Source of the DNA: Candidatus Obscuribacterales bacterium
Lineage (GTDB): Bacteria > Cyanobacteriota > Vampirovibrionia > Obscuribacterales > Obscuribacteraceae
Direction of reading: 5' to 3'
DNA: 64,000 bases
NCBI GenBank assembly: GCA_019750335.1
Contig: JAIEOQ010000008.1
Location: forward strand, 496,001 to 560,000
The translations under genes and the position numbers were made by a program. Below are positions 2,926-31,969 of the stretch, in pieces. The notes beneath the pieces were generated by a model, which saw nothing but the letters and a program-made list of their open reading frames with translations, was not told the DNA's origin and did no database searches. Position 1 is the stretch's first letter, and the number at the start of each line of letters is the position of its first letter.

Positions 2926-4200
2926 CTAACCGCGGACGATTTGGCAAAGGGTCCGCAGTTTACGACCACCGTTATATAAATCAAGCCCTTCGCTGTTTCC
3001 CTTGCTGGAGAGCTGCTTCAAGAGCAGTTCAAGCTCGGTCAAAAGCGTAAGAGCATTATTCAGGTTATTATCCTCGGGCAGCGCTTCAAGCTGCACGAGG
3101 AGTTTTTCCGACAGACCATCTAACAGTTCCTTCAAAGCCGCGGCGTTACCTGCCGTCGCGTAGAAAGAGCTTACTACCAGCGTTTCCGCCGCTTCGTTCC
3201 ATTTGATCACGGCGATGGACTTGTTGAAATTCAAGTCCCAATACGCTTTCTCCTGAGCTGTGATTGCCGTCACGCTGGCAGCCAGTGCTGGCTGCTTTTT
3301 GTGAAGCGCTTTCACCTTCAGTAACTCCGCAAGCAGCGCGTCGGCCGTCTCCTTATGACCGTCGCGTTTGGCTTGATTGGCAGCAGAGGCAGCGCTTGCA
3401 GCCGCATTGAGAGCGGCTGTTTGAGCGCTGGTTACTTCCCGACGCCGAACCTCTTCGCGTAGCTCCGCCAGACGAGACACGCTTGCCTCGTACACTTCCT
3501 CAGCTTGGCTGCGGTCAAGACACCAGGAGCCATGAAAAGAACGCGACCAGGAATAGCACTCAACCACGCCGTAAGCCAGAAGCTTGACGCCGGTATACGC
3601 ACATTGTCCGTACTCAAACTCGACAATCGCCGGCAAAGCTTCGTCGCTTTCGACGACGGGCATTACAAGAGCCGGCAAAGAGGCTTGCGCCGCCCGCCAG
3701 GCTATGTCGTTAACCCGTCGCCGACATTTTTCTTTCAACGCCGGCATATCGGTATCGGCAATGTCGCCAGACCAGTTGTCGAGCCGAATATACACCGCTA
3801 CCAGCCGGCCTTGAGGAAGTTTGACTCCCTCATCGGGCAGTTGTTCAAACTGCAAACCGGTAAGAAACGCCGCCTTCACATTCAGCCGCGGCGCACTACC
3901 GTCTGCTCGGTATTCCAGGGGATGCGACTCACCAAGCAGCTCAATCGTATCCGGATTGTCGTGCAGAACCCGCTCGACAAGAGCCGGATCAAGCGGCGGT
4001 AAGCACAAAGATTCAAGATCCCGCACCGCCGCCACCGAGCCGGCACCATTCAAGCGAGTACTCAACCAGGCTTTCAGCTCTTCCCGGCTGAGCACCGGAA
4101 ACAGCTCTTGTCCGGCGCGCCGATTCAGATCCCGGGCGCGTTGCTGCTGAGCTTTGTTCTCAGCAGCGATAGCCAGAAAACGTTCCATGTTGTTAGACAT
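2926..4200 (-). CDS. Helicase-associated protein downstream of the DEAH helicase (unrecognised)
   Basis: 424 aa, soluble. The first about 200 residues (including SREELKAWLS, PLEYRADGSAPRL and LPQGRLVAVYI) loosely recall the C-terminal DUF3418-type extension of large HrpA helicases, but I could not align it firmly. Residues 235-330 are alanine- and glutamate-rich and look coiled-coil. The gene follows the helicase core by 141 bases on the same strand and is closed by a strong terminator, so the two are probably co-expressed. The inference is that the extension domain of a long RNA helicase is here a separate subunit. The start after GAGGATAAC is used; a second ATG lies 12 bases inside. Confidence 0.7.
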   Translation of the reverse strand: MSNNMERFLAIAAENKAQQQRARDLNRRAGQELFPVLSREELKAWLSTRLNGAGSVAAVRDLESLCLPPLDPALVERVLHDNPDTIELLGESHPLEYRADGSAPRLNVKAAFLTGLQFEQLPDEGVKLPQGRLVAVYIRLDNWSGDIADTDMPALKEKCRRRVNDIAWRAAQASLPALVMPVVESDEALPAIVEFEYGQCAYTGVKLLAYGVVECYSWSRSFHGSWCLDRSQAEEVYEASVSRLAELREEVRRREVTSAQTAALNAAASAASAANQAKRDGHKETADALLAELLKVKALHKKQPALAASVTAITAQEKAYWDLNFNKSIAVIKWNEAAETLVVSSFYATAGNAAALKELLDGLSEKLLVQLEALPEDNNLNNALTLLTELELLLKQLSSKGNSEGLDLYNGGRKLRTLCQIVRG

Positions 4201-4224
4201 GTTATCCTCAACGTAAATGTGAGC

Positions 4225-4246
4225 ACTGCGCGTGTATGCGCGCAGT
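4225..4246 (-). other. 8-bp hairpin in the leader of the helicase-associated gene
   Basis: A perfect stem ACTGCGCG / CGCGCAGT with a 6-base loop, 24 bases before the start of the downstream gene. It has no U-tract. It could stabilise the mRNA end or mark a processing site between the two genes. Confidence 0.45.
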
Positions 4247-4341
4247 ATTCACCTGTTATTTAGAAAGCAATATCAAAAACGGCTGGCGGCGGTGACGCGA
4301 CATCCGGTTTTACCCGTGAGCCGCAACACCGCCGCTGCCGA

Positions 4342-6312
4342 TTAGCACATCTGAAGCGTCGCCCAGTCGGCAAAGAGTTCAGCTGCTCCGGGGTTAGCGG
4401 AGTCAACCACCTCTTCCCGACCGATTGGACGTCCGGCGAAAGACACTTGCGCGTATGAAACGCAAGCATCTCGTGCCGAATCGTAGCGCATACCCGAACG
4501 CTCAGCGCTGACTTGCACCAAATGCGGTGCAAGCTCAACGAGGAGCTGCGGCGTCACTTCCGTAACCAAACGCAGCAGACGCAAGGTTTTCGGAAAGCCG
4601 AACTTACCTTTCACTTCCAAGTCCCAGGGCTGCCCGACCACTAACGTAGCGCCCATAACCACGCTACCTTGCGTCTGCTCGCGGTATACACCTTGAGCGT
4701 TGCCGAAACAGCCGTTCTGTCCCTGATACAGCAGGTTGAGCATGCCGGCGACAACCGAGCGGATGATATCCTCTCGCTTACCCGTGCTTTTGAGCTCCAT
4801 CTTACCGCGCAAGGCTTCAACCAGACGTTGCCGTTGGTCTCGCGCCTTGTAATAGGCCACAGGACGAATGCCCTTGCCTTCCATGTCATTACGGGTCAGG
4901 CGGCGATCGCACACCGCTTTGAACACCGCCAGTTGAGCCAGAGCGTCCGACTCATCCTCACCGGCAACCAAGCTGCCCCAGAAAGGCAACTTATGATCCG
5001 TCAGCTCGCCGGTTTCCATAATCGCGGCGACAGTTAGCACGTCATCCGTGACGCCCAGTTTTTCAGCTTCGACCAGGGCACGGCCGACGCCGACTCCCAT
5101 GGGGAGCTGGGCGACTTTGTCACCGATGGTGGTGACCTTGCCGACTGCATCCATGCAGCCAAGCATTTTTAACGTCTCACGAGCTTCGCTGAGCTCGAGA
5201 GGCGAAGGTTGATGAAAGAAGGGCAACGACTCCGCGTCGAAACCCGCGCGAGCCACCCGTAAAACCATCTGATCCAGTCGCACGCGCTGGATCTCCGGTG
5301 TTGGATATTCAGCTCGATCAGCGCCCTGCTCCGGGCAACAGTCGATATAAACCCCTTCCGAAACACGTCCCGTACGCCCGCGCCGTTGCTTAGCGCGAGC
5401 CTTGGCGATGGGCTTGAGATAAAGCCCTTCCACACCGCCAACCACTTCCTTTCGGCGCTCCATGCCCGAGTCAACCACGGCAAGCTGCCGGCCTTTGGAC
5501 GGCAAAAGAGTACGCCCTGTTTCCAGAGCGTTGGTTGAGACAACGACCTTCGGACGACCGTAGGACCGGTAAGCTCGATCTTTAGCCCCCCGCTCCAAAC
5601 CGCCGTGAAAAGGGATAAGCTCCGCGTCGATCCCCGACTTTTGCAAGCCGTGAAGCAACTCGTCGATTTCGGCCTTGCCCGGCATGAAAACAAGAACGTC
5701 AAAGTTCTCGGACACCAGACCGCGAACATCCATGATCAGCGAACCCGAGGACTGCCGATCTTCAATCGGGTGCTGGCGCCCCGGCACCCTAAACACTGGC
5801 GCGTTCCCCCGCTGCCGCGAGAGTTCAGCCGAGTCGATGGTTGCCGATAGCACGATTACTTTCTTGAAAGGCGTGGTGCCGTCCAAAAGACCTTGCCAGG
5901 ACCAAGCTTCAAGCACCGATTGATCGAGCCGCCACTCGTGCAGCTCGTCGATAACAAGAGTGTCGAAGCGGCGGTTGTGCCCGCAAAGTTCGCGAATGAG
6001 CGTGAGCTCGGTGGTAGCGTAAAGAATCCGGCTGTCCGGTGAATCCTTACGGAAACTTCCGGTGCGGTAACCGATCTTGCTGCCGACCTCTTCGCCTTCG
6101 AGGCTGGCAGCGTATTCACCTGTGCCGATCACAGTCTCGACAAGCGGCTCGGCAACGAGCGCACGATGGCCGGCGTGCATCAACCAGCGCGGCACTTCGG
6201 TTGATTTGCCGGCGCCGGTTTCGGCTTCGACGATGATGTAAGGCGCATTGCAGGTCATGATTGCATTGCGAAAAGCAGCAATCGGAAGAACTTCGGCAAA
6301 ATTCGTAGTCAT
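4342..6312 (-). CDS. DEAH-family (HrpA/HrpB-like) ATP-dependent helicase core
   Basis: 656 aa. The superfamily 2 motifs appear in order: Walker A ETGAGKST around 31-38, motif II as DELH at 122-125 instead of DEAH, motif III SAT at 156-158, motif V STNALETG at 259-266, and motif VI QRRGRTGR at 309-316. A helicase-associated helical region follows. HrpA and HrpB proteins normally run to about 800-1300 aa, so this copy lacks the long C-terminal extension; the next gene may supply it. Such enzymes unwind or remodel RNA in the cytosol. The start ATG follows AGGAGTTCCTGTT. Confidence 0.9.
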   Translation of the reverse strand: MTTNFAEVLPIAAFRNAIMTCNAPYIIVEAETGAGKSTEVPRWLMHAGHRALVAEPLVETVIGTGEYAASLEGEEVGSKIGYRTGSFRKDSPDSRILYATTELTLIRELCGHNRRFDTLVIDELHEWRLDQSVLEAWSWQGLLDGTTPFKKVIVLSATIDSAELSRQRGNAPVFRVPGRQHPIEDRQSSGSLIMDVRGLVSENFDVLVFMPGKAEIDELLHGLQKSGIDAELIPFHGGLERGAKDRAYRSYGRPKVVVSTNALETGRTLLPSKGRQLAVVDSGMERRKEVVGGVEGLYLKPIAKARAKQRRGRTGRVSEGVYIDCCPEQGADRAEYPTPEIQRVRLDQMVLRVARAGFDAESLPFFHQPSPLELSEARETLKMLGCMDAVGKVTTIGDKVAQLPMGVGVGRALVEAEKLGVTDDVLTVAAIMETGELTDHKLPFWGSLVAGEDESDALAQLAVFKAVCDRRLTRNDMEGKGIRPVAYYKARDQRQRLVEALRGKMELKSTGKREDIIRSVVAGMLNLLYQGQNGCFGNAQGVYREQTQGSVVMGATLVVGQPWDLEVKGKFGFPKTLRLLRLVTEVTPQLLVELAPHLVQVSAERSGMRYDSARDACVSYAQVSFAGRPIGREEVVDSANPGAAELFADWATLQMC

Positions 6313-6612
6313 AACAGGAACTCCTGAAACGAATAAAACTGACTTGGTTGGTAAGGTGGTTTACTGCTGCCGGTTATGACCGGAAAGCAGGTTAGACAAT
6401 AAGTGCGCTGTTAGAGGCTTTTGACTTTGAAGTCCAATATAAATAAAAGAGAGAAGATGATCTCACTCTAATAATTCTATGTATATATAACCAAGTTAAA
6501 TAAGAGTCTCGCGAAAGCTAATTATGGGAATTACCGTAAAAAACAAAGTAAAGCCTTTTTGTTAGCTAGCGCTATTTTTTAGCAAAACAACCATATGATA
6601 TAGTTATTGCCT
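6313..6612. other. AT-rich intergenic region, probable helicase promoter
   Basis: No supported gene. Sequence around 6420-6560 is much richer in A+T than its surroundings (for example TATGTATATATAACC) and probably holds the promoter for the helicase pair on the minus strand. I could not fix a -35/-10 pair. Confidence 0.4.
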
Positions 6613-6666
6613 TCAAAAAACGCGAGAGGGGAAGACGCAAAAATGCTGCGTCTCCCCTCTCGCGTT
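6613..6666 (-). terminator. Long terminator hairpin after the soluble coiled-coil gene
   Basis: A stem of about 20 bp (AACGCGAGAGGGG against CCCCTCTCGCGTT, continuing to GACGCA/TGCGTC) with one bulged base and a short loop. On the minus strand it is followed by TTTTTTG. It separates the coiled-coil gene from the helicase pair. Confidence 0.9.
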
Positions 6667-6682
6667 GTAATCGAAAGCCTGA

Positions 6683-8212
6683 TTAATAGTCTACAAAACC
6701 GGGTTTCTCTTCTTTGACCTCGAAGGCGCTTGCGTAAATACTGCCGTGCAGCTTTTGCAGCTTGCGCACGACAATCATCACCACCCGAAATTGATCCGAC
6801 ATCGGCTTCAGAGTCCGTTCCATAATCGTGGCACCTTCCACACACTTGCCGGAAACTTCACGAGCCATCTCACAACGAGCCGAATAAGCGTCGTAAGCGA
6901 TCTGCACTTGGGCCCGCTGGCGGTCATTGCGTGCTCGCACTTCTTCCATCTGCAAAAGGTAGCTGTCCATGCTGTCGAAAGCGCCAACATAGCTGAAGTT
7001 TTGCAGGCTTTGACCGGAATAAGTAACCTTCTCATCCTCAAACTTTTTATCTCTGATCTCTTTGTACTTAGCATGAGCGATACACTTATTGGCTACGCTC
7101 ACGCCGACGTTCTTGATCTTAAGCTGCAAAGTTTCGATGAACTCCGGCTCTTGCTCGCCCATGTCGTGCACCGGCTCCGAATCGTCAAACTTGCGCCCAC
7201 GCCACTCTTCCACATCCTTGCGATAGTTGCGAATGATGTTGTTCACATAGTCGTTGATTTCACGAGCATTAAGAACAACAGCATCAACATCCGGCTCGGT
7301 TGCCCGAAACGCAAGATATCTTGTTTTACGCAAAAGCGGCGCCATGTTTTTAACAGCAATCTCAAGAGCGAGCAAATGCTTGCGAAAGAGAAGCACCTCA
7401 GCGGCAGCAGCTCTTTGAGCAGGCAGATAAAGCCGGCTCCATTCGTCAAGCTCTTTCAAATAACGCGACACTTCTTCCGCCGACGGTTTTCTCGGCTCGC
7501 TGAAGCGCTGCTCATCAAGCTCTTTTACAGCGTAGACAGCCCGTTGTGTCTGACAATGCGCTTCTTCAGTTTTAGCATGAACCTCGATTACCGTGTTCAG
7601 AGCCGCTGACAGCTTCTTAACCACAGCGTCATAACGCCGGCGCGCCGGCGCTTTTCGACGCTTGTCTCGCGCTTCGTGCAAAAACTCCCGCCAACCGGCA
7701 AGATTCGACTCGTTCATATTGTCGCGCCGTACTTGCAGCAAAGACAGAAGATTATGTACCAGCGACATTGCCGCCTGCAACGGAAGCGGTGTCGGTTCTC
7801 CGTTAAATGAAAGTCCCAAACTGGAAAGAGAGGTTGTCGAAAGTGCATCGTAAGTTACTTGCACATGGGCAAGAGCTTGCTTGAACTCTTCCATATGCAG
7901 CGGCAGCTCAGCACGTCCGCGAGCAAGATTTTCGCGATGCTCTTTTCTCTTCCGGCACCACTCAAAAAGCATTTCGCCATAGCCGCACGGACCCGAGTCC
8001 CTATCAACCTCATCTTCAATGTCTCGAAGCGCGCTACTGATGCTGCTTCCCGCTTTCAGGCAAAGCTTATGCTTGGCGCTCAGCACGCTAAGAGCATCGT
8101 ATGCCGCTTGCATGCGCGCCGTAATTTCAGAAACCGTTTTAGCAATCATTGCCGGTGAGGGCAAATCAGGCGGGCTTGAAGCCTCAGCCACCACAAGAGC
8201 CGGATCCCACAT
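6683..8212 (-). CDS. Coiled-coil protein of unknown function, soluble
   Basis: 509 aa with no recognised domain. Most of the chain is charged and helical, with heptad-like stretches around 30-150, 190-290 and 390-500, and no membrane segment or signal peptide. The start at 8212 follows AAGGAGCCCCTA. It is the fourth gene after the AAA+ ATPase and the membrane VWA gene and resembles the 715-aa coiled-coil gene before it in composition and in alternating helical blocks. It is therefore likely to belong to the same system, perhaps as a scaffold. I do not assign a function. Confidence 0.75.
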   Translation of the reverse strand: MWDPALVVAEASSPPDLPSPAMIAKTVSEITARMQAAYDALSVLSAKHKLCLKAGSSISSALRDIEDEVDRDSGPCGYGEMLFEWCRKRKEHRENLARGRAELPLHMEEFKQALAHVQVTYDALSTTSLSSLGLSFNGEPTPLPLQAAMSLVHNLLSLLQVRRDNMNESNLAGWREFLHEARDKRRKAPARRRYDAVVKKLSAALNTVIEVHAKTEEAHCQTQRAVYAVKELDEQRFSEPRKPSAEEVSRYLKELDEWSRLYLPAQRAAAAEVLLFRKHLLALEIAVKNMAPLLRKTRYLAFRATEPDVDAVVLNAREINDYVNNIIRNYRKDVEEWRGRKFDDSEPVHDMGEQEPEFIETLQLKIKNVGVSVANKCIAHAKYKEIRDKKFEDEKVTYSGQSLQNFSYVGAFDSMDSYLLQMEEVRARNDRQRAQVQIAYDAYSARCEMAREVSGKCVEGATIMERTLKPMSDQFRVVMIVVRKLQKLHGSIYASAFEVKEEKPGFVDY

Positions 8213-8944
8213 TAGGGGCTCCTTTCGAAGATAGTGAATGAAACATATACAACCAATTGCAGCCGCATCGCGGCACGCTCAACTGATCGGATAAACGAAA
8301 CGTCGCTTAGAGCAATGTTTTATACAGCTAACGGATCGGTGCCGCCAAACAGCTTACGCTGTTGGACAACAAAATGAATCCGCAAGCCTAATTCGGTATT
8401 TAAACCAGCGTCAAATAAACGCCTTAAGCCCATCCTCAATCAACTTCAAAGCCGGGGCTAAGCCGGTTTTATCCGGCTCTCAAATCAGCTTGGAAGCAAC
8501 CTTACTTTTTAGCGACATTTCGCCACCGAATATTGTCGTTCTTTTTCCTTCCAGGCGGGTTCAGCGCAACGTCGGTTCGGGTTGAAATGGAACCGGGTTG
8601 CGCTCCAGTAAAGCTCACCTTTTCAGGCTTACTTCACTGAAAGTTATCGACTTACAATTAAGGTCTGGCTTTCCTGGAAAAGCCACCTTACGCCTAAGTT
8701 ATTATCTGCTCCCCAATCAGGAGTCAAAGTAAGTCTCTTCCCGCTTCGATCCGGTGCTTGATGCTTGCGCAGCTAGCACTCAAATCAAGGCGGACGATCT
8801 CCTTACCCATTCCATTGCACAGATATTAAAGGTTAGCAGCGCCGGCAATTGAGTGCTTACCAGCGTAAGTCTGCTGCTAATTTATTAGGAACGACAACGT
8901 GAGCGCACCGCGACACGGCTGCAACAGCCATATCAATCGGCCAA
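8213..8944. other. 732-bp gap with no gene; one good stem-loop at 8563-8604
   Basis: I found no ORF with a ribosome site on either strand. The clearest structure is AGCGCAAC (8563-8570) pairing with GTTGCGCT (8597-8604), with an inner GGTTC/GAACC stem. The gap separates two similar coiled-coil genes and may hold a promoter for the downstream one, or the remains of a lost gene. Confidence 0.4.
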
Positions 8945-11092
8945 TCAGAGCTCAGGAACATGCTCTTTGTAAGAAAAGGCCATGCTGAGAGCGCCGGCAG
9001 CCAAAATCAAGACGGATAACTGATTGGAAACCTCTAAGCGAAAGCGTCTTCGTTGCTGGAGAAAGTCTTTCAATGCCTTTCGACATTCTTCAGCCTTCTG
9101 CCGACGCTCCTCAAAAGCTCTTGAAGCTAAAGCAAGATCTTCGCGATTCTTTTCGCATTCACCGTTGTACTTCTCCATTTTGACAAGATGAGCTTCCATG
9201 CCAGCTACCAACTGGACAAAATCACAAGGCGGACACAAACATTCATCAGTCGCAGCCGGCAGCGTCGGTGCTTTGGGCTGAGATGGTCTTTTTCCTGATT
9301 GCACTTTAAGACATTTGTTTTTAGCCACTTCGCGCTGGGCCAAAGCAAAAGCAAAAGAGCGCATCTTAGCCTGCAGTTCAGCAAGTGCGTCGCTTTCACC
9401 ACCGTCCTCAGCCGGTTTAGTAAAAGTTACGCAATGATTTGTCAAAGGAGCGATTTTATGCCGGAGGTCAGCAAGCTTAGCCTCCAACCAAGCTGAAAAT
9501 GAATTACAAACAGTAACCGCTGTCACCACATTCGTAGTCTTTTTCTGACAATCAAGATCGTCTAAAGCCGACATCCCATTCTCGAAAGATTCGACGACCG
9601 CTTTTACGCGCGCCTCTTCTTCTTCAATTGAGCGCACCCTTTCACAAAAAATCTGAGCCGCCGACATTTCAGCTGCCGCCCGTTCTCGAAAGAGTGAGAG
9701 GCAATCGGCAACTTCTTTTTCAGCTGGCTTTTGCGGGCAAGTCATACCAGCATAAGAGAAGTCCAGCAGTTTTTGCCATGGCTCTTGAACAAGTTCAATT
9801 TGCCCATCCAAAGCAAAGCAGGCGTTCACAGCCGCCTGCAGAAGCTCTTTTATACCAGGCAATATTGCTGCCAATTTCGTGTCGTCTGCTTCGCTCGCCT
9901 CGACAGAGGACAACAAAACAGTCTTCAGTGAACCCAGAGCCTGGGATAAATCATTGATGCCCGATTGAAATGTAAAGGAAGCATAACTGCAAACATGCTT
10001 GATTGCCTCAAGCTCAGCGGTTAAAGACTGATGCTCCCGCAAAGGATTAACCAATGCCTCAAACTTATTTTTAGCCTCCCCCACTCTTATTATGGCTGCC
10101 TCGAACTGCTTGATCTCAGTTTCAAATTGCCAGCCGGCTTGTAAGAACTCAAGCTTCTGTCCACGCTTGCGAATGAACATCTCTTCAAAAGAACCGGCAT
10201 CAGCCAACTGCAAAGGAGAATCAACATGCTCTTGAGCTTCTAAGTATCTCTTTTTGCTTCCTGCGCAAGAACTGCCAACTTCAGCCGCCTCGTTCAACAA
10301 TGAAAGCACCAGAACAGCTTGCTCTTTGACTTTGGCTGCCAGATCAACCAACTCCGGCGACTGAGGGGCATCCGGCTCACGATGGGTCTCTTTCATCCCC
10401 TTACGCTGTGACTTAGCTTGAGTCGGCAGAGTCCTGATGTCATCTTCACGCAGATAGTTCGACTGTTTGAGAAGAAGCTCTTCAACGACACGGCGCACAA
10501 CCACCAATCGACGCGGAAGCGTATAAGGGCTAAGGCTGGCAACCGGCTTTACAAGACGCTTCAATTCTTGCCCGCCAGCGGCAGCTTGAGAAATGAGCCG
10601 AGCAAATTCGGGCGGATTCAGAATAAGCACTTGGGCTTCAAGCAATTCTCGCCAACGTTCGCGCCGCAGCAAAACAGCCGACTCGAAGGACTTTATGTCA
10701 GCTGGATTGATGCTAAAACTAGAACTCAATACATTGTAGAGATAGGCTTGAAAGTTACGAACCGCTTTCTTCCAGGGCTCATGGGCTTTGCGTAACGCTT
10801 CCGTTTTAGCAAGCACCACTTGCATTTGCGCTTCTAGCTTGGCGGCAAGAAGCTCAGCCTGTTCTTCAGACATAGCCATAACCGGCGGTTTTGGTGTATA
10901 CCAATTCCGCAGCGGCAATGTTCTTTCTGGCAATTCTTTTTGATCAACAACAGCAGCAGCCGGCGCTGCTGCCACAGCCTGCGCTCGCTTTTTGCGCCGC
11001 GCAAGCTCTTGCTGCTTCCAACGCTTAGTGACAAAGTGCCCGCCAACAGGCACCAGTACAAGCGTAAGCAGCAAAAGAATAATTAAAGCCAT
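8945..11092 (-). CDS. Membrane-anchored coiled-coil protein of unknown function
   Basis: 715 aa. One N-terminal membrane helix (about 2-23, LIILLLLTLVLVPVGGHF) is followed at once by a basic stretch (KRWKQQELARRKK). Most of the rest is charged and helical with coiled-coil character, and a weakly hydrophobic stretch lies near the C-terminus (about 690-705). With basic residues after the helix the bulk is probably cytoplasmic. The start ATG follows GGAGAAGGTT. It lies 128 bases after the VWA gene across a terminator-like hairpin. The context suggests a partner or substrate of the AAA+/VWA machine. Confidence 0.78.
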   Translation of the reverse strand: MALIILLLLTLVLVPVGGHFVTKRWKQQELARRKKRAQAVAAAPAAAVVDQKELPERTLPLRNWYTPKPPVMAMSEEQAELLAAKLEAQMQVVLAKTEALRKAHEPWKKAVRNFQAYLYNVLSSSFSINPADIKSFESAVLLRRERWRELLEAQVLILNPPEFARLISQAAAGGQELKRLVKPVASLSPYTLPRRLVVVRRVVEELLLKQSNYLREDDIRTLPTQAKSQRKGMKETHREPDAPQSPELVDLAAKVKEQAVLVLSLLNEAAEVGSSCAGSKKRYLEAQEHVDSPLQLADAGSFEEMFIRKRGQKLEFLQAGWQFETEIKQFEAAIIRVGEAKNKFEALVNPLREHQSLTAELEAIKHVCSYASFTFQSGINDLSQALGSLKTVLLSSVEASEADDTKLAAILPGIKELLQAAVNACFALDGQIELVQEPWQKLLDFSYAGMTCPQKPAEKEVADCLSLFRERAAAEMSAAQIFCERVRSIEEEEARVKAVVESFENGMSALDDLDCQKKTTNVVTAVTVCNSFSAWLEAKLADLRHKIAPLTNHCVTFTKPAEDGGESDALAELQAKMRSFAFALAQREVAKNKCLKVQSGKRPSQPKAPTLPAATDECLCPPCDFVQLVAGMEAHLVKMEKYNGECEKNREDLALASRAFEERRQKAEECRKALKDFLQQRRRFRLEVSNQLSVLILAAGALSMAFSYKEHVPEL

Positions 11093-11120
11093 AACCTTCT
11101 CCTCAATCAGATGAATGAAG

Positions 11121-11176
11121 AAAAAACCACCGCCGAAAACAGCGTGTCTTGGAAAAACAACGCTGCTTCCGGCGGT
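11121..11176 (-). terminator. Terminator-like hairpin between the VWA gene and the coiled-coil gene
   Basis: Outer arms ACCGCCG/CGGCGGT with an inner AGCGTGTC-type stem. On the minus strand it runs into GGTTTTTTC. It may act as an attenuator that lowers expression of the coiled-coil gene relative to the VWA gene. Confidence 0.65.
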
Positions 11177-11220
11177 TTAGTTAATCCGGCAAACACCTTA
11201 AGGACTAGGTGTTGCCTTGC

Positions 11221-13710
11221 TTACACTGCGGCAATCAAGCTCGATTCAAAGATGCGCCCGAGACTGCCCGCCGCATCCAAAAGCGGCTTAGAATGCAGAT
11301 CAACCACATTCCAGGGCAGAGGAGCATCATGGTTACTATCGACAGCAACCTGGATCACGACGATGCCATCTTGGGTCAGCTGCCAACCGAGCGCATTCAA
11401 AGCACCCCAGCTGCAATCAGCCGGCTGCATGTCCGAAACGATCACAATCGCTCGAACCGAAGCCGGACGAGAGAGCAATGACTGCGAAGCATGCCAAAGA
11501 GCCGCAGCGTCGTTGTTACCGCCAGCGGTTTGCAAACCGGAAGCACGTTCGCCGCCGGCGCTACCGCAATCATAAATCTCGCTTGCGGTGAAGCCCCAGG
11601 TTTGCAGCGAAACTCCTCGCTTGCCGCGAACCGCCGCTTCAAGAGCCAAAGCAATCATTTTGCTGCGCTGGAATTTCTGCCCGCGCGCCAAAAGACTCGT
11701 CGGCTCTGTTTGCGAATCGGAACAATCGATCAGCACGTCGATAGCCAACGACATACGCCGTTTCGGCTTTTCGGCCACAAGCACGTTCACTTCGCCGGCA
11801 AGCACCAACTCAAGCTCGTCAATCAGATCATCGCCTTCCGGACAATAATCTTTTTCAGCCGAAGTAATGCCGATTCTGGTCAAGCTGTCGCTGAGCACTC
11901 GCGCCGCTTCAAGAACTTCGGCAGCCGTACGCTCAACAAAGCCGGCGTCGGCATTCACCGGAATCACGGTCTCGATAGCGCTAAAACCGGTGGTGGTTTT
12001 ATCCACCGGCAAAGTGCAGGCAACATCGTGATCGACCTCTTCGTCGTTAAACATATCGACCAAAAGGAAGCGCTTGATTGCTTTACGATAGACCCAAGTA
12101 AGACCAAGCATCACCACCCAGAACCCTACCATCATCACCAGCTGCCAAAGCATAAGCTTAGTGCTGAAGAAGGCGACGGCATAAACGGTGGCAAGCACCA
12201 TGGCAATCGGCAAAGCGACAATAACCAAACGCAAGCTTGGATTGCGCCAGAGCAAGAAAACAGTGCGCGAGCACCAAGCTCCGAAACCACAAATCAAGCT
12301 GACTAAGCCGGCACGCAAATGAATCATCAAAGCCGATCGCCAGAAGCGATCTTTCGTCTCGCAAATTCCGTCCCAACGATCTAAGACAAACCCGCGAACA
12401 TTTGCCCAGCCTCGACGACAAAGGTTGGTAAAGGACGTCCAAACTCCATCAATCAAAAATTCCCAGGTACACGTAGCGCCGCGGCAAATCGCTTCCCAAC
12501 GAAGAGAGGCAAAAGCACCGATGGCACCGCCGATAATAGCAAGTGGCAAAAGACCGATGCCTGACAGAACAAGTCCGACAAGCAATCCAGCTAAGGCACC
12601 GACTAGAACGCCAAAGCTAAGCTGGAATCCGCCGACATACTGCACGCGGAACGGCAACCAGCCGAAAAGAATCTCTCCCAAACTTCGTCGTGGTAGGCGC
12701 GGAGCACGAGTACCATCGTTTTCGCGACGGGTTCGGTATCGATTGCGCACGGCGACAGCGCCAGCAAGCAAAGCAACAGCGCTGCCGACCGATCCGGTCC
12801 AGAACAAGCCGAGCCAGAAATTGACACCGAAAGAAAGACAGACGACAAGCCAAACCAGAACTGCGGTGAAAAGCGTAATGTACGACCAGCGCGAGCCGAG
12901 CACAACTTGCCACCAACGCGGATCGACCGGATTGAGCGCCAAGATCGGATCTTCGACAGCAGCATCCTCGGCCACTTCGTCGCCCGCGGCTTCGTCCAAA
13001 GGCAGAACCGCTTGAATCGGCTCAACAACCGTCTTTTTCGGCACGGCAACGTCGCGAGCCAAAATCGTCTGCACTTGAAGAGCCAATTGCAGCACTTGGT
13101 CTTTGCTCAACTCTTTCAAGTCGTCAGGGACGTAAGCCAGAGCTTCAGCCACCACCGCATCGACATTGTCGGAGGTAGGCAAGTGGCGGCGCAGATAGTA
13201 AGCGAACTCGTTAACCCGGCGGAAATAAGCAGCACAGCTACCTCCACCGTTAGCGCTGCCGCCGGCAATTTCGGTAATGCCGTCGCTGCGTTGGCGAGTG
13301 GCAGAGCGATAAACGTAACCGGTCAAGCTTTGGAAAAGCGAACCGAGATTGGCATCGCGCGACATAGCACAACGCTCGTCGTGCTCGTCGTTGAGCAACA
13401 AAAACACCGGACGACAATTGGCGTCTTCGGCAGACTTCAGTTGTTCAACGGCCGGGGTGAGCAGGCGTTGAAGTTGAAAGAAAGCGATGGCACGCCAAAT
13501 AGTGCACGCAGTTTCTTCGTTGCGCACTTTGGCTAGAATGCCCGGATCCAAAACCACGCGCAAAGCTTGTCTGGAATCAGCCCCGAAAGCAGTTTGCAAA
13601 TGCGGTCCACCTTTGAGCTCAATGCGAACCGGACGATCGGCATAGCGAGCCAAATCAGCAGCTAAGAGCGTCGTCTGCTCTTTCACAAAGGGAGAGTTTT
13701 TAACGTCCAT
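11221..13710 (-). CDS. Polytopic membrane protein with C-terminal VWA (CobT-like) domain
   Basis: 829 aa from the ATG at 13710, chosen because GAGGA lies 5 bases before it; an ATG 12 bases upstream lacks a ribosome site. The N-terminal part (about 1-250) is soluble and contains LLNDEHDERCAM, similar in feel to the scaffold region of CobT/VWA proteins. About seven to eight membrane helices lie between 275 and 560. The last about 175 residues form a VWA domain: MIDAS motif DCSDS near 662, GGNND near 730, and IVIVSDMQ as the third metal motif. CobT-type and MoxR-associated VWA proteins bind Mg2+ and work with an AAA+ ring, and the gene just upstream encodes one. A VWA domain joined to so many membrane helices with a CobT-like layout is unusual. 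Confidence 0.88.
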   Translation of the reverse strand: MDVKNSPFVKEQTTLLAADLARYADRPVRIELKGGPHLQTAFGADSRQALRVVLDPGILAKVRNEETACTIWRAIAFFQLQRLLTPAVEQLKSAEDANCRPVFLLLNDEHDERCAMSRDANLGSLFQSLTGYVYRSATRQRSDGITEIAGGSANGGGSCAAYFRRVNEFAYYLRRHLPTSDNVDAVVAEALAYVPDDLKELSKDQVLQLALQVQTILARDVAVPKKTVVEPIQAVLPLDEAAGDEVAEDAAVEDPILALNPVDPRWWQVVLGSRWSYITLFTAVLVWLVVCLSFGVNFWLGLFWTGSVGSAVALLAGAVAVRNRYRTRRENDGTRAPRLPRRSLGEILFGWLPFRVQYVGGFQLSFGVLVGALAGLLVGLVLSGIGLLPLAIIGGAIGAFASLRWEAICRGATCTWEFLIDGVWTSFTNLCRRGWANVRGFVLDRWDGICETKDRFWRSALMIHLRAGLVSLICGFGAWCSRTVFLLWRNPSLRLVIVALPIAMVLATVYAVAFFSTKLMLWQLVMMVGFWVVMLGLTWVYRKAIKRFLLVDMFNDEEVDHDVACTLPVDKTTTGFSAIETVIPVNADAGFVERTAAEVLEAARVLSDSLTRIGITSAEKDYCPEGDDLIDELELVLAGEVNVLVAEKPKRRMSLAIDVLIDCSDSQTEPTSLLARGQKFQRSKMIALALEAAVRGKRGVSLQTWGFTASEIYDCGSAGGERASGLQTAGGNNDAAALWHASQSLLSRPASVRAIVIVSDMQPADCSWGALNALGWQLTQDGIVVIQVAVDSNHDAPLPWNVVDLHSKPLLDAAGSLGRIFESSLIAAV

Positions 13711-13770
13711 GAGGTTCCTCATCGGAAGAAGTTAGGCTGGAGAAGCGCCACGACGGCAACTTTCTCAAAG

Positions 13771-14889
13771 TCAGGTCTTTTTAACGATATCTTCGATGTT
13801 CTTACCTTCCAGCGCTTCGCGAATTTTGTTGGCGACACGAGCGCGCTGGGATTTGTCGTTATTCATACGACCAGAAAACTGATTGGCAACAGCGGTGATC
13901 ATGGCTGTTTTGATCTCGATCCCGGCAGCCAAAAACATAGTTACGCTTTCAATCATGCGCGAACAGATGCATTTGGAAAGATGCATCTCGGGGCTGATTT
14001 TGCGCAAAGAAAAAATCACTTTCAGGGCTTTTTCCAGACCCTCACGCGGGCAATCCGGATATTTGCGCAAACAATCCTTGAGCTGGGCATCGTAAGGCAT
14101 GTAGTCGACTTCAAAGACCACCCAGCGGCTGGCGTTGGCGTCGTCTTGGTCTTTGACAGTGAAGCCCGAGCCGACATTGCCCGCCGCCATCCAACGAATA
14201 TTGGAGGGAATATGGATGATTTCCGGCTTCGGCGTTTGCAACTGCCGATCTTCACCTTCAATAACACCCAAAAGAACGTCCCGCGCATCTTCGTCAATAC
14301 GGGTGTATTCGTCGATCATGGTCAAGAAAATTTTGTCCGGATTTTTGATCGCTTCACGGATAATCTTGACCAGAGGCGAATCTTCGAAAACAAATTGCAC
14401 TTGCCCATCGACAATCGTTTGCTGAGTGCGTCCGTACATCTGGCGGTAGCTCTTGATTTGAGCGCCCTGTACCAGACGAAATTCCCAATTCAAACGCTTA
14501 GCCAAAGACCGCGAAATTGTGGTCTTGCCGCAACCTTGGGGACCTTCAAGAAACAAGTTTTTAAAGCGGTTCTGCAAAACCACAGACATCAGCTGGGCCT
14601 GTTCCGGGTCAATCCAGACATTGTCGAAACTGCAGTCAATCTGCTGGGAGACCGGACGCACGATGATGGCACCGTTACGCTCAGAGCGCGGCTTGGTTAT
14701 GCGCACGATTTCGCAAAGCCATCTTTGACCGGCTTGGGGCGCGATAACATCGCTTCCGCCCTGCTCGCACAAAATAATCTTCGGAGAACGTGCGCCGCTT
14801 GCCCGGTTGGACTTAACGCCACCGGAGGAGGGGTTCGCCTCCCAATCAACAATCAGTCTGCTTCCTTGCTCAAATGAAACAGCAGTCAT
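13771..14889 (-). CDS. CobS/MoxR-like AAA+ ATPase
   Basis: 372 aa. Walker A GPQGCGKTT is at about 116-124, Walker B LTMIDEYTRI at 189-198, and sensor 1 asparagine in WMAAGN near 238, followed by a helical lid. This is the CobS/MoxR branch of AAA+ proteins, which remodel or insert cofactors into partners together with a VWA protein. The ATG at 14889 is preferred because AGGAG ends 6 bases before it; the ATG at 14895 abuts the ribosome site. It is the first gene of the minus-strand set, 60 bases before the VWA gene, so the pair is very likely one functional unit. Confidence 0.92.
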   Translation of the reverse strand: MTAVSFEQGSRLIVDWEANPSSGGVKSNRASGARSPKIILCEQGGSDVIAPQAGQRWLCEIVRITKPRSERNGAIIVRPVSQQIDCSFDNVWIDPEQAQLMSVVLQNRFKNLFLEGPQGCGKTTISRSLAKRLNWEFRLVQGAQIKSYRQMYGRTQQTIVDGQVQFVFEDSPLVKIIREAIKNPDKIFLTMIDEYTRIDEDARDVLLGVIEGEDRQLQTPKPEIIHIPSNIRWMAAGNVGSGFTVKDQDDANASRWVVFEVDYMPYDAQLKDCLRKYPDCPREGLEKALKVIFSLRKISPEMHLSKCICSRMIESVTMFLAAGIEIKTAMITAVANQFSGRMNNDKSQRARVANKIREALEGKNIEDIVKKT

Positions 14890-15526
14890 GATCATCTCCT
14901 GTGTTCAGAGACAAAACAATCTGAAATAAGCTGCACTAGATAGTTGAGAAGTTTCTACCGCCTAAAGAACGTGTATTGAAAAAACAGAACAATTTACCGT
15001 AGCTAGTGCGCTTAAACTGCCACAACAAACGTGAAGTTAGGCTTTAATCAGCATTATGCAAAACAGGCGCAAATCAACCAAATATTGACAACATCTTATG
15101 AGCAGGAAACCTCGCGCGATTGCGCTAGTTTCCAAGAGTCCGTATTCAAGGCTTTATTAGCGCTAGCTCACAAAAACGCTTATTAGGCCATTTATGGTGC
15201 TTCTCCCATATGTGATCCAGTTAAGATTCTCTTTTAACTATGCTTCTAGTGCTCTAAGTAGCTAGGTTCTGATCATCCCCCTTATACACATCTCTTTTTC
15301 AAAAAGAACCAGAACATAACTCTTTTCACTAATAAAACCATTGTCCCGCCAGGCGCGTCGCCCGGACGGGTTATCTCTTCGTTCCTTCACTGCAAGCAAA
15401 GGAGAACGCCAAAGTGAAGTAAAAATCGCATTGCATCGATATTTCGTGTGTTGTGTCTGTATTTTGCATTTTCGATTCCATGTTCTGCCCAATGTGCAGA
15501 ACCAACTTGAACTGGAGAAATCCATT
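14890..15526. other. AT-rich divergent intergenic region
   Basis: No supported gene. It lies between the AAA+ ATPase (minus) and the large membrane protein (plus) and must carry both promoters. The plus-strand reading frame stays open back to 15341, but the stretch 15341-15526 has no ribosome site and non-coding-like composition, so I treat it as leader. Confidence 0.5.
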
Positions 15527-17575
15527 ATGTTTTCCACTCTCGGTCTGGTAACCGCGCTCGTTTGCGCCGGCGTCGCCGCCGCCATCGCCGCCTATATGGC
15601 CGCCACGGCCACCCACTACCTCAACTTCGCCGACAGCTCTCCGACTAAAATTGAGCCCGCCTATCGTCCGGTGGTCGTTCGTCGCGCCGCTCTCGTGGCC
15701 GGCATCGTCACCTTCATCGCCACCAAACTGATCGGCTACTACGAAATGCCCGTCACCGTCGGACCTTTCGCCGGCTACGGCTTTCACCTATTAGCCACGC
15801 TACTTCCGGCTTTCGCTTCCGGGTTGGTCTTCAGCGCCGGGCGCGGTCGGAATTGGTTGATCGTCGGAATCACACTGGCAGCGTTGCCGTTCTACAGTGC
15901 CGTGGTCTATCTGATTTACGGCGTTGCCGACTGCGGCATCTACACCTTGCTGCTCCTGCCTTTCTTGGTTGGAATCGGCGTCTACACCTTCTTCGCTTCC
16001 GGCTTCTTGAAGGGTGTTCTGCGGCTGGTCAGCTGCTTGGCTGTCCTGACGCTGCTGGTCTTCTTCGTCGGCAATCCGATTGCTCACAACTTTGCCGTCG
16101 AAAACGCCAAGACGCTGGCTTCATTGCCCAAAATCAATGAGGCTCCGAAAGGCAGCACGATTCCGCCGAGCGATCCTAACCACTTGCTTTTGACCACCGG
16201 CAGCATCGCCCGGTTCAAAGGCGAAACTGCTCTTGCCACCCTCGGTGACAAGGAACACGGTAACCTCTCGAGCAAGTACAAAATCGGTGAGTACGACAAG
16301 CAAGCCGTCGGCGGCAAGCGGTATTGGATCGCACCGTTGACTCTGGCCAACTCCAAGGACCAGTGGAACATCGGCAGTCCGTACAGTCCGGGTTATGTGG
16401 TGGTCGATGCTGAAGATCCGGAAGCTCCGGCTCAAATCAAGCTCGGTTACCACATTCGCCATTTCGAAGACCAAGACTGGGGGCTTTATCTCTCCCGCTT
16501 CCTCTACGAAAGCGGCTTCAGCGGCGGCTACCTGGAAGATCCGAAGTTCGAAGTGAATGATGCCTGGGAACCGTACTGGGTGATTAGCTACCTGAAGCCG
16601 GTGATCGGCAACGTTGAAGGACGAGTGATCGAAAAGACCATTCTCGTCAAAGAAACCGAAGCCGAAGCCCAAATCTCGAGCTATGACCCGAACAATGCGA
16701 AGGAACGTACCGAAAATGCTTGGGTTGATCGGGTGATGAGTTACGGTCTCGTGAAAGAATACATGACCAACTGGGGCATGTATCAAGGCAGCTTCGCCCA
16801 GAATCACTTCTGGCAAGTGTTCTTCAACGTCGATCGGACCGGCACCCTGCAACCGGGCAACATCGACCTCTGCTATACCAAAGCCGAGGAAAATGTTTGG
16901 GTGATTCCGATGACCTCCACCAAACCTGGCTCGCATGGCGTGACCGGCTTGATGGTCTATGAAACTAACCGAAACGAAGCTACCTGGTATCCGGAAATCC
17001 AGGGCTTCAACATCGGTTCGAGCGTGATTCAAACCATGGAAAAAGCGCGCGACAACGTGCGCGGATACCACGTGGAACACGTTCAGTTGATGTCGATCTA
17101 CGGCGAGCTGACTTGGGTAGGCATTTACACTGCTCCCCAAAGCACCGGCTCTTCTTTCGGCGGTGTCGGTTTTCTCCATGCTCATGCTCAGAATCCGTCC
17201 GATGTGGTCTTCGCCGATAAAAAGGCTACGGCACTCCAACGTTACGCGGACCAGCTGGCCAACGGTCATACCGGCGGCGGCAACATTTCGCAAACGGCGG
17301 AGTTGAGCAAAGAGATTTCAGGGAAAGTCATATCGATTGCGGCGCTGCCTTCCAACAGCGGTGCTTCGACCTGGCTCTTCAAGGTGGAAGGTCAGTCTCG
17401 TTCCTTCACGATCACCCGCGATGTCTACAGCGACATCCCGCTAGTCAAGGAAGGTCACGAAGTGAAATTCACCTACATCGACACCCACACACACGACGTA
17501 CCCGTGAACAGCTTCAAGTGCCCGTTCTTCGATAACATCAAGGACACGACACCGGAAGTGCAACCGCAGAAGTAG
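15527..17575 (+). CDS. Large membrane protein with extracytoplasmic domain, unrecognised
   Basis: 682 aa. The start at 15527 is set by GGAGAAATCCATT before the ATG. Five to six membrane helices fill residues 1-190 (for example LVTALVCAGVAAAIAAYMA). They are followed by an about 490-residue soluble domain rich in Trp, Tyr and Gly, which from its position probably faces the outside. No catalytic motif stands out; THTHD near the C-terminus could bind metal. A perfect terminator follows, so the gene is its own unit. It opens the plus-strand array of mostly unknown genes. Confidence 0.82.
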   Translation: MFSTLGLVTALVCAGVAAAIAAYMAATATHYLNFADSSPTKIEPAYRPVVVRRAALVAGIVTFIATKLIGYYEMPVTVGPFAGYGFHLLATLLPAFASGLVFSAGRGRNWLIVGITLAALPFYSAVVYLIYGVADCGIYTLLLLPFLVGIGVYTFFASGFLKGVLRLVSCLAVLTLLVFFVGNPIAHNFAVENAKTLASLPKINEAPKGSTIPPSDPNHLLLTTGSIARFKGETALATLGDKEHGNLSSKYKIGEYDKQAVGGKRYWIAPLTLANSKDQWNIGSPYSPGYVVVDAEDPEAPAQIKLGYHIRHFEDQDWGLYLSRFLYESGFSGGYLEDPKFEVNDAWEPYWVISYLKPVIGNVEGRVIEKTILVKETEAEAQISSYDPNNAKERTENAWVDRVMSYGLVKEYMTNWGMYQGSFAQNHFWQVFFNVDRTGTLQPGNIDLCYTKAEENVWVIPMTSTKPGSHGVTGLMVYETNRNEATWYPEIQGFNIGSSVIQTMEKARDNVRGYHVEHVQLMSIYGELTWVGIYTAPQSTGSSFGGVGFLHAHAQNPSDVVFADKKATALQRYADQLANGHTGGGNISQTAELSKEISGKVISIAALPSNSGASTWLFKVEGQSRSFTITRDVYSDIPLVKEGHEVKFTYIDTHTHDVPVNSFKCPFFDNIKDTTPEVQPQK

Positions 17576-28086: not shown

Positions 28087-29033
28087 GGTAGATCTCCCTA
28101 GTACAGAAAGTGATTTCGGACAAATGCAGAAGATGCCGATTGCTGTCCAGGCAAATCGACATTCCATTTCCGCGCGACAGCGCATACTCACTTCAGGTCC
28201 AAATCCGATAAGAAGCCCATGTCCCGAACCTCAATAGAGGTATTTTTGGGATGCTGTAATAGCCATTGGGTCTTGAAAGGGATTTGAGCCGGACCTGTTT
28301 TGAGTTGGAAATGAAGGAATAACTAACGCTATGAAATTGAAAGGACTAAATACAACTAAATAGTGGCACCCCATATATATGAATAACTAAAGTGACTGAG
28401 ATCCTCTTCTCAAGCCGGCTTAGGAGAATCATTTCTATAGAGAAGCGTTCGCAAACGCAGTAAATTCGTGACTGCTTAAAAGAAGGAAGATGGGAAAATC
28501 ACCACTGAGATTCAAGTGCGCTCAACTAACTCAGCTAGAGAAGTATCTAATCTTTGTTTGAAAATGGCTAAATCATGGGATTTCAGAAGATCACTTCAAT
28601 TTTCCAAAATTAGCAAACCAAAACGGACTGATTCTTTGGTCAGCAAAAAATTTTGCTCGCAAACAGCTAGTTAAAAATCCGCGCTAGCTAGTGAATACGT
28701 TGCAAAGAAAACTGCCGAAAAACGGCTATATTAGAGGGTTGCAGAAGTTAGTATAAAGACTTAAAAGTCATGATCTGGGAGAAACCGTAGATCACCACCT
28801 GTTTCTCAACAGGATTAACCTCAGATCATCTTTCTATCTATTAGTTATATACGTTAGGGTCAGATTATCTCTTATCCCTCTTTCAATTACGGTCTTTCGA
28901 ACAAGCGCAATTTCAATAAAAAAACCTCGCCCATATATCAGCACACGCTGACCGGGCTGCGCATTTGTTTATGACTGTGCTTGAAAGATGGATAAGCATG
29001 AGTTTCACCAACTGTTTTTCCGGGAGATTTGCC
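28087..29033. other. 947-bp non-coding divergent region
   Basis: No supported gene. It separates the S1 gene (minus) from the FN-repeat cluster (plus). It is A+T rich with many stop codons in all frames, and must hold two promoters. A structured stretch lies at 28770-28829. Confidence 0.45.
28770..28829 (+). other. Two-stem structured element upstream of the FN-repeat cluster
   Basis: An outer 8-bp stem ATGATCTG / CAGATCAT encloses a perfect 6-bp hairpin CCTGTT-TCTC-AACAGG. It lies about 200 bases before the first FN-repeat gene. It could be a leader RNA element or a DNA site; strand is not certain. Confidence 0.4.
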
Positions 29034-29456
29034 ATGCGCACGACGACGAAAAGTTTTGCTGCTTTGAACCGCGCTCTTGCCGGATTCGGCTACAGCTTAG
29101 CGGACATGGTCAAACACGGCGTCGACCTCGATGCCTTGAACGACCACTTCATCCACGCACCGGAACCGCTGGTTTTCTTAGCAGCGTTCATCGACGCCCT
29201 GGACGAAGATCGTATCAACCTGGAGGACTTCAACGGTCGTCTCGACCTCGAAGAACTCACCACCGCCGAAGCTCGCTTGAATTGCGGCGTGTACACCCAA
29301 GGATTACTCGCACTCAACGAGGACATCTATCACGGGCTACCCGACTGCCCCTTCAAGCGAGTGCTGATCGCTTGCTACGATGAGCCGCGCTGCCGCACGA
29401 CTCCTCGTAAGTGCGCCGCCAATCGTTCGCTTGCCTGCCTAGGCGAAAGCATTTAG
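29034..29456 (+). CDS. FN-repeat family protein 1
   Basis: 140 aa from the ATG at 29034 (GGGAG 7 bases upstream). It contains one copy of a helical unit shared by six genes in this cluster: a GFGYSLADM lead helix, then VDLDALNDHF, then a helix, then NLEDFNGRLDLEEL and a closing helix ending in LALNED. The C-terminal 25 residues are Cys- and Arg-rich (RCRTTPRKCAANR) and may bind metal or nucleic acid. No known family recognised. Confidence 0.8.
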   Translation: MRTTTKSFAALNRALAGFGYSLADMVKHGVDLDALNDHFIHAPEPLVFLAAFIDALDEDRINLEDFNGRLDLEELTTAEARLNCGVYTQGLLALNEDIYHGLPDCPFKRVLIACYDEPRCRTTPRKCAANRSLACLGESI

Positions 29457-29477
29457 CCGGCAAGAATTGTCAACCCC

Positions 29478-29507
29478 AGGGCGGGAGGAGAATTTTTCTC
29501 CCGCCCT
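29478..29507 (+). other. Intergenic hairpin after FN-repeat gene 1
   Basis: Stem AGGGCGGGAG / CTCCCGCCCT with a 10-base loop. No T-tract follows (CATCAAG), so it is more likely a processing or stabilising hairpin than a simple terminator. Confidence 0.6.
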
Positions 29508-29601
29508 CATCAAGTATGTGTTACCTTGGCGGCCGCCTGGCCGTCTTGTTTCTGTTCTGAAAGTCTGTTTCTCAACCCTCTGTTTTAAAGGAGAACTGGT
29601 T

Positions 29602-30006
29602 ATGGTCGCTATGATTTCGAATGATTCCGCCTTTCGTCAGTCCCTGAGCCGCTCGCAATGGAATCGGGTCCTCGCCGGCATGAGCTTCGATATCGCCAGT
29701 TACACGGCGATGGGCTTCAGCCGCCGCAAGGTACTCGACATCGTTCGGGCCGGCTACGCCGCCGACTTCGAGAAAGCCGTCAACAACGGCCTGCTCGTGT
29801 CGGAGTTCAACCAGGCGGATCTGACCGAAGAATACATGGAGAGCCTCGCGCTCTTCAATGACGTCGCCAGGCTCGCCGCCGCCAGCCCCTACGATCGGGC
29901 GACGACGATGATGGAAGGCGTTGCTCACTTGCTCGAAGCGCCGACGCGCCCGTACAACCGGGTGCTGCGCGTCCTCGAAGAAGTGTTCGATCGCCACACG
30001 CTCTAG
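29602..30006 (+). CDS. FN-repeat family protein 2
   Basis: 134 aa from the ATG at 29602 (AAAGGAG 8 bases upstream). It carries the unit in a shifted form: GFSRRKVLDIV, then AVNNGLLVSEFNQADLTEEYMES, then a closing helix ending in LFNDVARL. The EFNQ-LTEE part matches protein 3 closely. Function unknown. Confidence 0.8.
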   Translation: MVAMISNDSAFRQSLSRSQWNRVLAGMSFDIASYTAMGFSRRKVLDIVRAGYAADFEKAVNNGLLVSEFNQADLTEEYMESLALFNDVARLAAASPYDRATTMMEGVAHLLEAPTRPYNRVLRVLEEVFDRHTL

Positions 30007-30035
30007 AGTCGGAGCGCCAAGCCTAATGCCAACCA

Positions 30036-30065
30036 GAAGAGAGGCGGAGCAATCCGCCTCTCTTC
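30036..30065 (+). other. Intergenic hairpin after FN-repeat gene 2
   Basis: A perfect 13-bp stem GAAGAGAGGCGGA / TCCGCCTCTCTTC with GCAA loop (a GNRA tetraloop), followed by TTCG. Weak as a terminator; very stable as an RNA hairpin. Confidence 0.65.
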
Positions 30066-30118
30066 TTCGACAAGCGTATTGATTTCTGATTTTTACTTCT
30101 GCATAGAAAGACACTCTC

Positions 30119-30727: not shown

Positions 30728-30772
30728 TGTTGTTTCTACCAATTTCACTTTTGCACGAAAGAAATTTCGATC

Positions 30773-31081: not shown

Positions 31082-31117
31082 GCGCAGCATACTGCTCCAA
31101 AGCGCATAACCTGCGCG

Positions 31118-31165: not shown

Positions 31166-31169
31166 TCGG

Positions 31170-31242: not shown

Positions 31243-31307
31243 CTTGTGTTTGTTCCGTTACTCAATTTTGCCCGCAACCGTTTCACCCCTATTTGGAGAT
31301 CACTGCC

Positions 31308-31943: not shown

Positions 31944-31969
31944 TTCAGGTCGAAAACGCATCTTGCGTG

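Follow-up and report, generated by a model that had tools for sequence, protein, structure and literature searches.

To our knowledge, pairs of a MoxR-type AAA+ ATPase and a VWA-domain protein are widespread, and few of them have a known client. In the structures of one such pair, NorQ-NorD (NorQD), the helix-2 insert of the ATPase NorQ grips the finger of the VWA protein (PMC13036017). MoxR-vWA conflict systems carry a linked third component, which in the commonest kind is mostly helical (PMC7159879). Here we analyze a window of 64,000 nucleotides (contig JAIEOQ010000008.1, positions 496,001 to 560,000) from a 4.2-Mb metagenome-assembled genome of Candidatus Obscuribacterales, in which a cassette of four minus-strand genes encodes an AAA+ ATPase (P0004), a membrane VWA protein (P0003) and two helical proteins (P0002 and P0001). 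Our computations establish the four genes, the families to which they belong, their linkage, the paralogous relationship of P0001 and P0002, the domain order of the VWA protein and the loss of a zinc-site motif in its lineage. On balance, we judge it probable that the cassette encodes a membrane-anchored MoxR/CobS-type remodeling machine that lies on the cytoplasmic side of the inner membrane and has the helical paralogues as its dedicated partners. The cassette consists of the following elements:

13771-14895, minus strand: CobS/NorQ-type AAA+ ATPase P0004, 374 amino acids (Pfam AAA_5, PDB profile matches)
11221-13722, minus strand: membrane VWA protein P0003, 833 amino acids, with a zincin-like domain, a membrane region and a VWA domain
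8945-11092, minus strand: one-helix anchored helical protein P0002, 715 amino acids, a member of the helical family
8213-8944: intergenic gap of 730 bp between the P0002 and P0001 genes, a possible operon split
6683-8212, minus strand: soluble helical protein P0001, 509 amino acids (profile comparison, structure model)

The four open reading frames (ORFs) lie where the initial annotation of the window had placed them, in the order AAA+, VWA, transmembrane (TM) helical and soluble helical, and are separated by 48 bp, 128 bp and 730 bp, respectively. A single transcript may span all four, which the gap at 8213-8944 makes uncertain; promoter and terminator scans of the locus scored no higher than shuffled sequence. 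In one close pair of relatives, the ratio of nonsynonymous to synonymous substitution rates (dN/dS) is about 0.01 for the AAA+ gene, 0.05 for the VWA gene, 0.16 for the soluble helical gene and 0.11 for the TM helical gene. These low values indicate that all four genes are real and under purifying selection.

P0004 matches Pfam AAA_5 at 1.1e-13, which bears out its earlier description as a CobS/MoxR-like AAA+ ATPase. When compared with the PDB, the profile of its family matches CobS (9ujv, 3.8e-8), NorQ (9qhd, 4.8e-6) and CbbQ (5c3c) over the ATPase module, and also midasin, over a short part of that module only. The homologues that adjoin other membrane-VWA genes are 42-52% identical to P0004. 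In an alignment of nine AAA+ homologues, Walker A and B, the sensor-1 Asn and an Arg at the finger position are conserved, and G155-R156 in the helix-2 insert is invariant:

14521-14544, minus strand: Walker A motif GPQGCGKT, P0004 residues 118-125 (alignment)
14377-14448, minus strand: helix-2-insert region with the invariant GR, P0004 residues ~150-173 (alignment)

The GR is also present in most of the distant AAA+ partners. Several family members extend it to GRLLP or GRLIP, compared with GRxLL/I in NorQ; the window copy reads GRTQQT and keeps the GR only.

P0003 combines a membrane region with a VWA domain and its metal ion-dependent adhesion site (MIDAS):

12100-12885, minus strand: membrane region with 6-7 predicted helices, P0003 residues 280-541 (hydropathy, loop charges)
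11224-11985, minus strand: pre-MIDAS segment and VWA domain, P0003 residues 580-833 (Foldseek, hhalign)
11713-11727, minus strand: MIDAS DxSxS, D666-S668-S670 (alignment)

A Pfam scan did not detect the VWA domain in the window copy, and neither the VWA profile nor the zincin-like profile gave a useful match when PDB sequences were searched. We modeled P0003 with AlphaFold2 from 32 homologues (mean predicted local distance difference test score, pLDDT, 73), obtaining a mostly confident N-terminal domain, a confident VWA domain and a less certain membrane part. In Foldseek, the top four PDB matches of this model are NorD chains bound to NorQ (9qhd, 7.1e-7), after which rank the MIDAS domains of Rea1/MDN1 (midasin). 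Midasin MIDAS domains likewise dock on AAA+ rings. The VWA region also aligns, pre-MIDAS segment included, with a plasmid CobT-like VWA protein (hhalign, 2.7e-12), and it keeps the DxSxS and the late Asp of the MIDAS. The initial annotation had called P0003 a VWA protein with about eight helices; the VWA assignment stands (model to NorD, E 7e-7), the helix count comes down to 6-7. It had also made the pairing depend on a VWA interface that fits the ATPase. In line with such an interface, the closest structure is NorD bound to an AAA+ ring, P0004 retains the helix-2-insert GR, and the pre-MIDAS segment of P0003 is homologous to its counterpart in the plasmid protein.

Hydropathy and loop charges in 10 homologues place the short loops of the membrane region outside and the Arg/Lys-rich loops inside. 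By this charge pattern, the zincin-like and VWA domains are predicted to lie on the same, cytoplasmic side. The alignments of viral CobT-like models to the VWA family are long enough to include both soluble domains, and we therefore take the 6-7-helix region to have been inserted between the two domains of a CobT-like protein. The membrane form makes up one clade (support 100/100; tree drawn with a midpoint root). P0003 ends with its VWA domain at residue 833, with nothing fused after it.

That NorQ/NorD and CobS, both metal-insertion machines, are the closest structural and sequence neighbors of the pair, and that the complex is predicted to sit at the membrane, would suit a maturation chaperone for a membrane metalloenzyme, inserting metal or opening a cofactor site in the way that NorQD serves nitric oxide reductase (NOR), with the helical proteins as accessories. 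We consider this improbable: no metalloenzyme was recognized among the neighbors examined, and the linked helical pair would be left unexplained.

Ahead of the membrane region, P0003 carries a zincin-like domain:

13033-13722, minus strand: N-terminal zincin-like domain with degenerate catalytic motif, P0003 residues 1-230
13465-13479, minus strand: degenerate HExxH, FQLQR, P0003 residues 82-86
13372-13389, minus strand: retained second motif, DEHDER, P0003 residues 112-117

Nearly all relatives have HExxHH and DExxER, among them Obscuribacterales, the soluble cousins in Myxococcota and Planctomycetota described below, and one Wenzhouxiangella; E113 and R117 of the second motif are invariant across 32 sequences. 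The exceptions to HExxH are the window copy (FQLQR), its sister in genome G013 (FQQLF; the two VWA proteins are 39% identical overall) and the variant in genome G033, from which the whole domain is missing. Window P0003 thus lacks both His and Glu of HExxH, the zinc-site signature of zincin metallopeptidases. In the tree, the copy from the window is grouped with that from G013 (support 100/99), so the loss is most simply older than their split. Because the ORF is complete and the VWA site retained in both copies, their motif pattern points to a retained pseudoenzyme in the window lineage and not to a decaying gene. The domain is modeled confidently (pLDDT ~90 for residues 60-130), and its assignment as zincin-like rests on the order of motifs and secondary-structure elements, similarity to Pfam Zincin_1 being marginal (best E 0.011, 3/17 members).

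The spread of intact motifs, which takes in the soluble Myxococcota and Planctomycetota forms and, as HEAAH and EDIRIER, the plasmid CobT-like protein, raises the question of whether the HExxH-intact relatives are ATP-driven membrane zinc proteases, with the window lineage catalytically dead and confined to remodeling. This seems very unlikely to us. Zinc binding and proteolysis are putative, the Pfam zincin similarity is marginal, and with both His and Glu gone, proteolysis cannot be the activity of the window protein.

By profile comparison, the P0001 and P0002 genes are diverged paralogues of one new helical family, with a domain in common:

8966-9754, minus strand: shared helical domain of P0002, residues ~447-709 (hhalign)
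6740-7636, minus strand: shared helical domain of P0001, residues ~193-491 (hhalign, model)

The soluble and anchored groups of the family align at 4e-11. The P0002 group (A7) aligns with the anchored group (A6) at 4e-12 and with group A5 at 2e-7; P0001 aligns with the G028/G014 group (A8) at 5e-11 and with the P0002 group at 5e-6, against 0.1-0.2 for reversed controls. Taken alone, the similarity of P0001 to the other soluble members is weak (0.002-0.004), and it is through the G028/G014 and P0002 groups that it joins them. We rejected helix-rich composition as the sole cause of this likeness, since the controls stayed at background: reversed profiles gave E ~0.1 or worse, and column shuffles scored at most 24 versus 50-120 for real pairs. 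The family shares the landmarks PxKPxxxEV....W, LRxxxRxxxFAxAQ and a C-terminal DELR. DUF3150 was also tried as a homologue and rejected (E 0.62 when a DUF3150 protein was compared with the helical family by hhalign).

The model of P0001 is all-helical with long antiparallel helices (mean pLDDT 75). A PDB fold search with it returned nothing significant (best E 0.2) and no BAR, ESCRT or spectrin assignment. The ‘coiled-coil’ label that the soluble protein had first received is fair in view of these predicted helices, and a new helical family is the better name; that the two proteins match nothing known agrees with the lack of any match for P0001 and P0002 in Pfam, PHROGs, NCBIfam or PADLOC. 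The single membrane helix claimed for P0002 is visible at the N-terminus of its sequence and recurs in most anchored relatives. An Arg/Lys-rich segment follows this helix, from which the helical part of P0002 is predicted to be cytoplasmic. Several soluble members end in a short aromatic tail (YPVY, YPLY and FPVY at loci L034, L032 and L030; P0001 ends in GFVDY) that is absent from anchored members and is a possible docking peptide.

To assess co-occurrence, we surveyed the 50 genomes available for the family Obscuribacteraceae. The membrane VWA gene is found in 10, the helical family in 10 and both in 9 (Fisher p 4e-8, uncorrected for relatedness; the matches span several genera), and G033 is an 11th VWA genome, with the variant without membrane helices. 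In all nine genomes with both, the helical genes lie on the same strand as the VWA gene and downstream of it. The linkage put forward in the initial annotation therefore extends to 9 of the 10 genomes with the membrane AAA+/VWA pair; in this family the only other genome with a helical gene is G020, which is 66% complete and in which that gene starts at a contig edge. The soluble gene precedes the anchored one in five genomes, where the genes are closely packed and in one case overlap, and follows it in the window; in G013 and G014 the contig ends within the locus. The AAA+ gene adjoins the VWA gene at 9/9 membrane-VWA loci whose contig fully covers it, and at the tenth (G017) an AAA+ fragment lies at the contig end. 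Cassette-bearing relatives are labeled Candidatus Obscuribacter phosphatis, Ca. Obscuribacterales and Ca. Melainabacteria, which places the host among the relatives of cyanobacteria that do not photosynthesize. Elsewhere in the phylum, 385 sampled genomes contained no member of the helical family (386 with the window’s own, the only positive).

The genes next to the cassette differ from genome to genome (citrate synthase, prolyl-tRNA synthetase, a Usp protein, nucleoside hydrolase). These unrelated neighborhoods suggest a discrete, patchily distributed module. Two flanking genes of the window were considered as further parts and rejected: a DEAH helicase (4342-6312) and a TM protein (15341-17575), homologues of which occur away from the cassette. 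A 424-amino-acid ORF (2926-4200) has no counterpart at other cassette loci. Separately, we note that locus L036 of genome G023 (3787-12799), which lacks helical genes, adjoins a putative lipid kinase, acyltransferases and a PLD-domain protein; this may be chance.

Presence in 10 of 50 genomes amid unrelated neighborhoods, helical genes that diverge faster than the AAA+ gene, and the third component, mostly helical in the commonest kind, of the known MoxR-vWA conflict systems (PMC7159879) are all features expected of a conflict or defense system like the vWA-MoxR ternary systems, in which the AAA+/VWA pair would act as a switch and the helical proteins as sensor or effector. We nevertheless regard this as unlikely, if the least so of the alternatives. 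Pfam and PADLOC recognized no VMAP, iSTAND, FtsH or beta-propeller in the cassette, although divergent VMAP-like helical domains could escape such searches; no toxin-like or nuclease domain was recognized in it either, and the effector position after the VWA domain is empty. Neither the VWA protein nor the helical proteins have a PADLOC match, and no match to P0003 appeared in the viral contigs searched.

Beyond the family, a scan of GTDB genomes yielded nine loci in Obscuribacterales and a second set of 34 in Myxococcota, Planctomycetota and a few other lineages. Where complete, the VWA proteins of the second set are for the most part ~1,600-1,900 amino acids long, with N-terminal HEAT repeats and C-terminal zincin-like and VWA domains, and at many Myxococcota and Planctomycetota loci a CobS-like AAA+ gene (E ~1e-50) lies beside or near the VWA gene. 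No helical partner genes were found beside these HEAT-zincin-VWA loci, and NCBIfam gave no name above cut-off to the one such protein tested. They are loci L073-L106, including Wenzhouxiangella; in L084, for example, the VWA gene spans 6293-11605 and the AAA+ gene 11639-12784. On the Marinobacter salarius conjugative plasmid pHL2708Z5 (L130:3812-8302) we observed a module of AAA+, hypothetical, DUF3150 and VWA genes. Its VWA protein has the same zincin-like pattern, with intact HEAAH and EDIRIER. AAA+ matches occur in 309 plasmid records.

From these comparisons we infer how a ring might assemble, how its pore might be entered, how the parts are oriented and in contact with the helical proteins, and what the whole might do. 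P0004 would form the ring and P0003 would be its co-chaperone, held in the membrane by the helices that separate its zincin-like domain from its VWA domain. If it works as NorQD does, the segment before the MIDAS would enter the pore of the ring, and ATP hydrolysis would twist the VWA domain against a fixed N-terminal and membrane part. The helical paralogues, one anchored and one soluble, would be a client or adaptor assembly that is built, opened or dismantled at the membrane. A membrane-tethered AAA+/VWA machine had already been proposed in the initial annotation and gains support here; that annotation had overlooked that P0003 has a zincin-like domain, that the helical genes are paralogous and that there are soluble cousins fused to HEAT repeats.

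Several observations weigh against this proposal. The pre-MIDAS ‘finger’ segment of P0003 is modeled with low pLDDT, and the usual MIDAS Thr is an invariant Asn (GNND) in all VWA homologues, soluble and membrane forms alike. Genome G023 has the AAA+/VWA pair without helical genes, and in G028 we found one anchored helical gene and no second, so the helical pair is not a strict requirement. Nor did we find a substrate enzyme linked to the cassettes. The evidence that the helical paralogues are most likely a client or adaptor assembly is their linkage, and without a fold match for the family a client is indistinguishable from a scaffold. We put at about even chances the broader proposal that the cassette represents a new class of inner-membrane AAA+ machine in Obscuribacterales, in which a ring and a membrane-split CobT-like protein assemble or remodel helical paralogues and the zincin-like domain has become a pseudoenzyme in one lineage.

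If a remodeling machine is indeed encoded, the cassette names candidate clients directly: two paralogues travel with the AAA+/VWA pair and, bar the one contig-edge gene, did not turn up elsewhere in the genomes searched. The cassette further suggests that a CobT-like adaptor turned into an integral membrane protein through an insertion between its domains. The membrane form and its soluble HEAT-repeat cousins lend themselves to a comparison of how such rings are directed to their targets, and since the zincin-like domain is intact in most relatives and degenerate in the window lineage, its role can be put to the test.

Elsewhere in the window, two uncharacterized paralogous genes (51641-53068 and 54691-56151; 475 and 486 amino acids, E 7e-69) have short ORFs between them. 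Three tRNA-Thr(TGT) genes lie within 10 kb (at 22092, 31170 and 31969), of which the latter two are nearly identical and flank a 216-amino-acid ORF. Several short adjoining ORFs at 28965-32807 share the pattern GLD...FN...L..EE and resemble a tandem family that has diverged, with similarity under the phmmer cut-off that we applied.

Compared with known systems, the AAA+/VWA engine of the cassette is familiar, and its membrane version and helical partners are undescribed as far as we have found: neither the membrane architecture nor the helical family is described in the libraries (Pfam, PHROGs, NCBIfam, PADLOC) or openly accessible papers searched. NorQ-NorD (PMC13036017, PMC9976466) likewise combines a MoxR-type AAA+ protein bearing a helix-2-insert GR and an adjacent VWA co-chaperone that has an N-terminal domain, and NorD is the best structural match to the VWA domain of P0003. 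Unlike NorD, for which no membrane helices are described, P0003 has the 6-7-helix insert, and unlike NorQD the cassette has Asn for the MIDAS Thr, no linked NOR genes and two helical partners. With CobS-CobT the cassette shares an ATPase that aligns to CobS, and distant VWA relatives touch Pfam CobT_C; the CobT equivalog TIGR01651 does not match P0003 (19.6 bits for a distant relative versus a cut-off of 759), and no cobN or cobalamin genes occur among the sampled cassette neighbors.

In RavA-ViaA, too, a MoxR AAA+ protein and a VWA partner act at the inner membrane; ViaA is reported to reach it by lipid binding (PMC9489729), whereas P0003 is predicted to be integral. The vWA-MoxR ternary systems (PMC7159879) resemble the cassette in their AAA+/VWA pair, their linked and often helical third component and their patchy distribution, and differ from it in that none of the third components that define the four described systems was recognized in the cassette and no effector domain follows its VWA domain. 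The plasmid CobT-like module has an AAA+ protein, DUF3150 and a VWA protein with HEAAH, but no membrane region, and its DUF3150 protein is unrelated to the helical family. Unlike the cassette, the HEAT-zincin-VWA proteins lack a membrane region and neighboring helical genes and carry ~1,100 extra N-terminal residues, HEAT repeats included; with it they share homologous zincin-like and VWA domains and an AAA+ partner.

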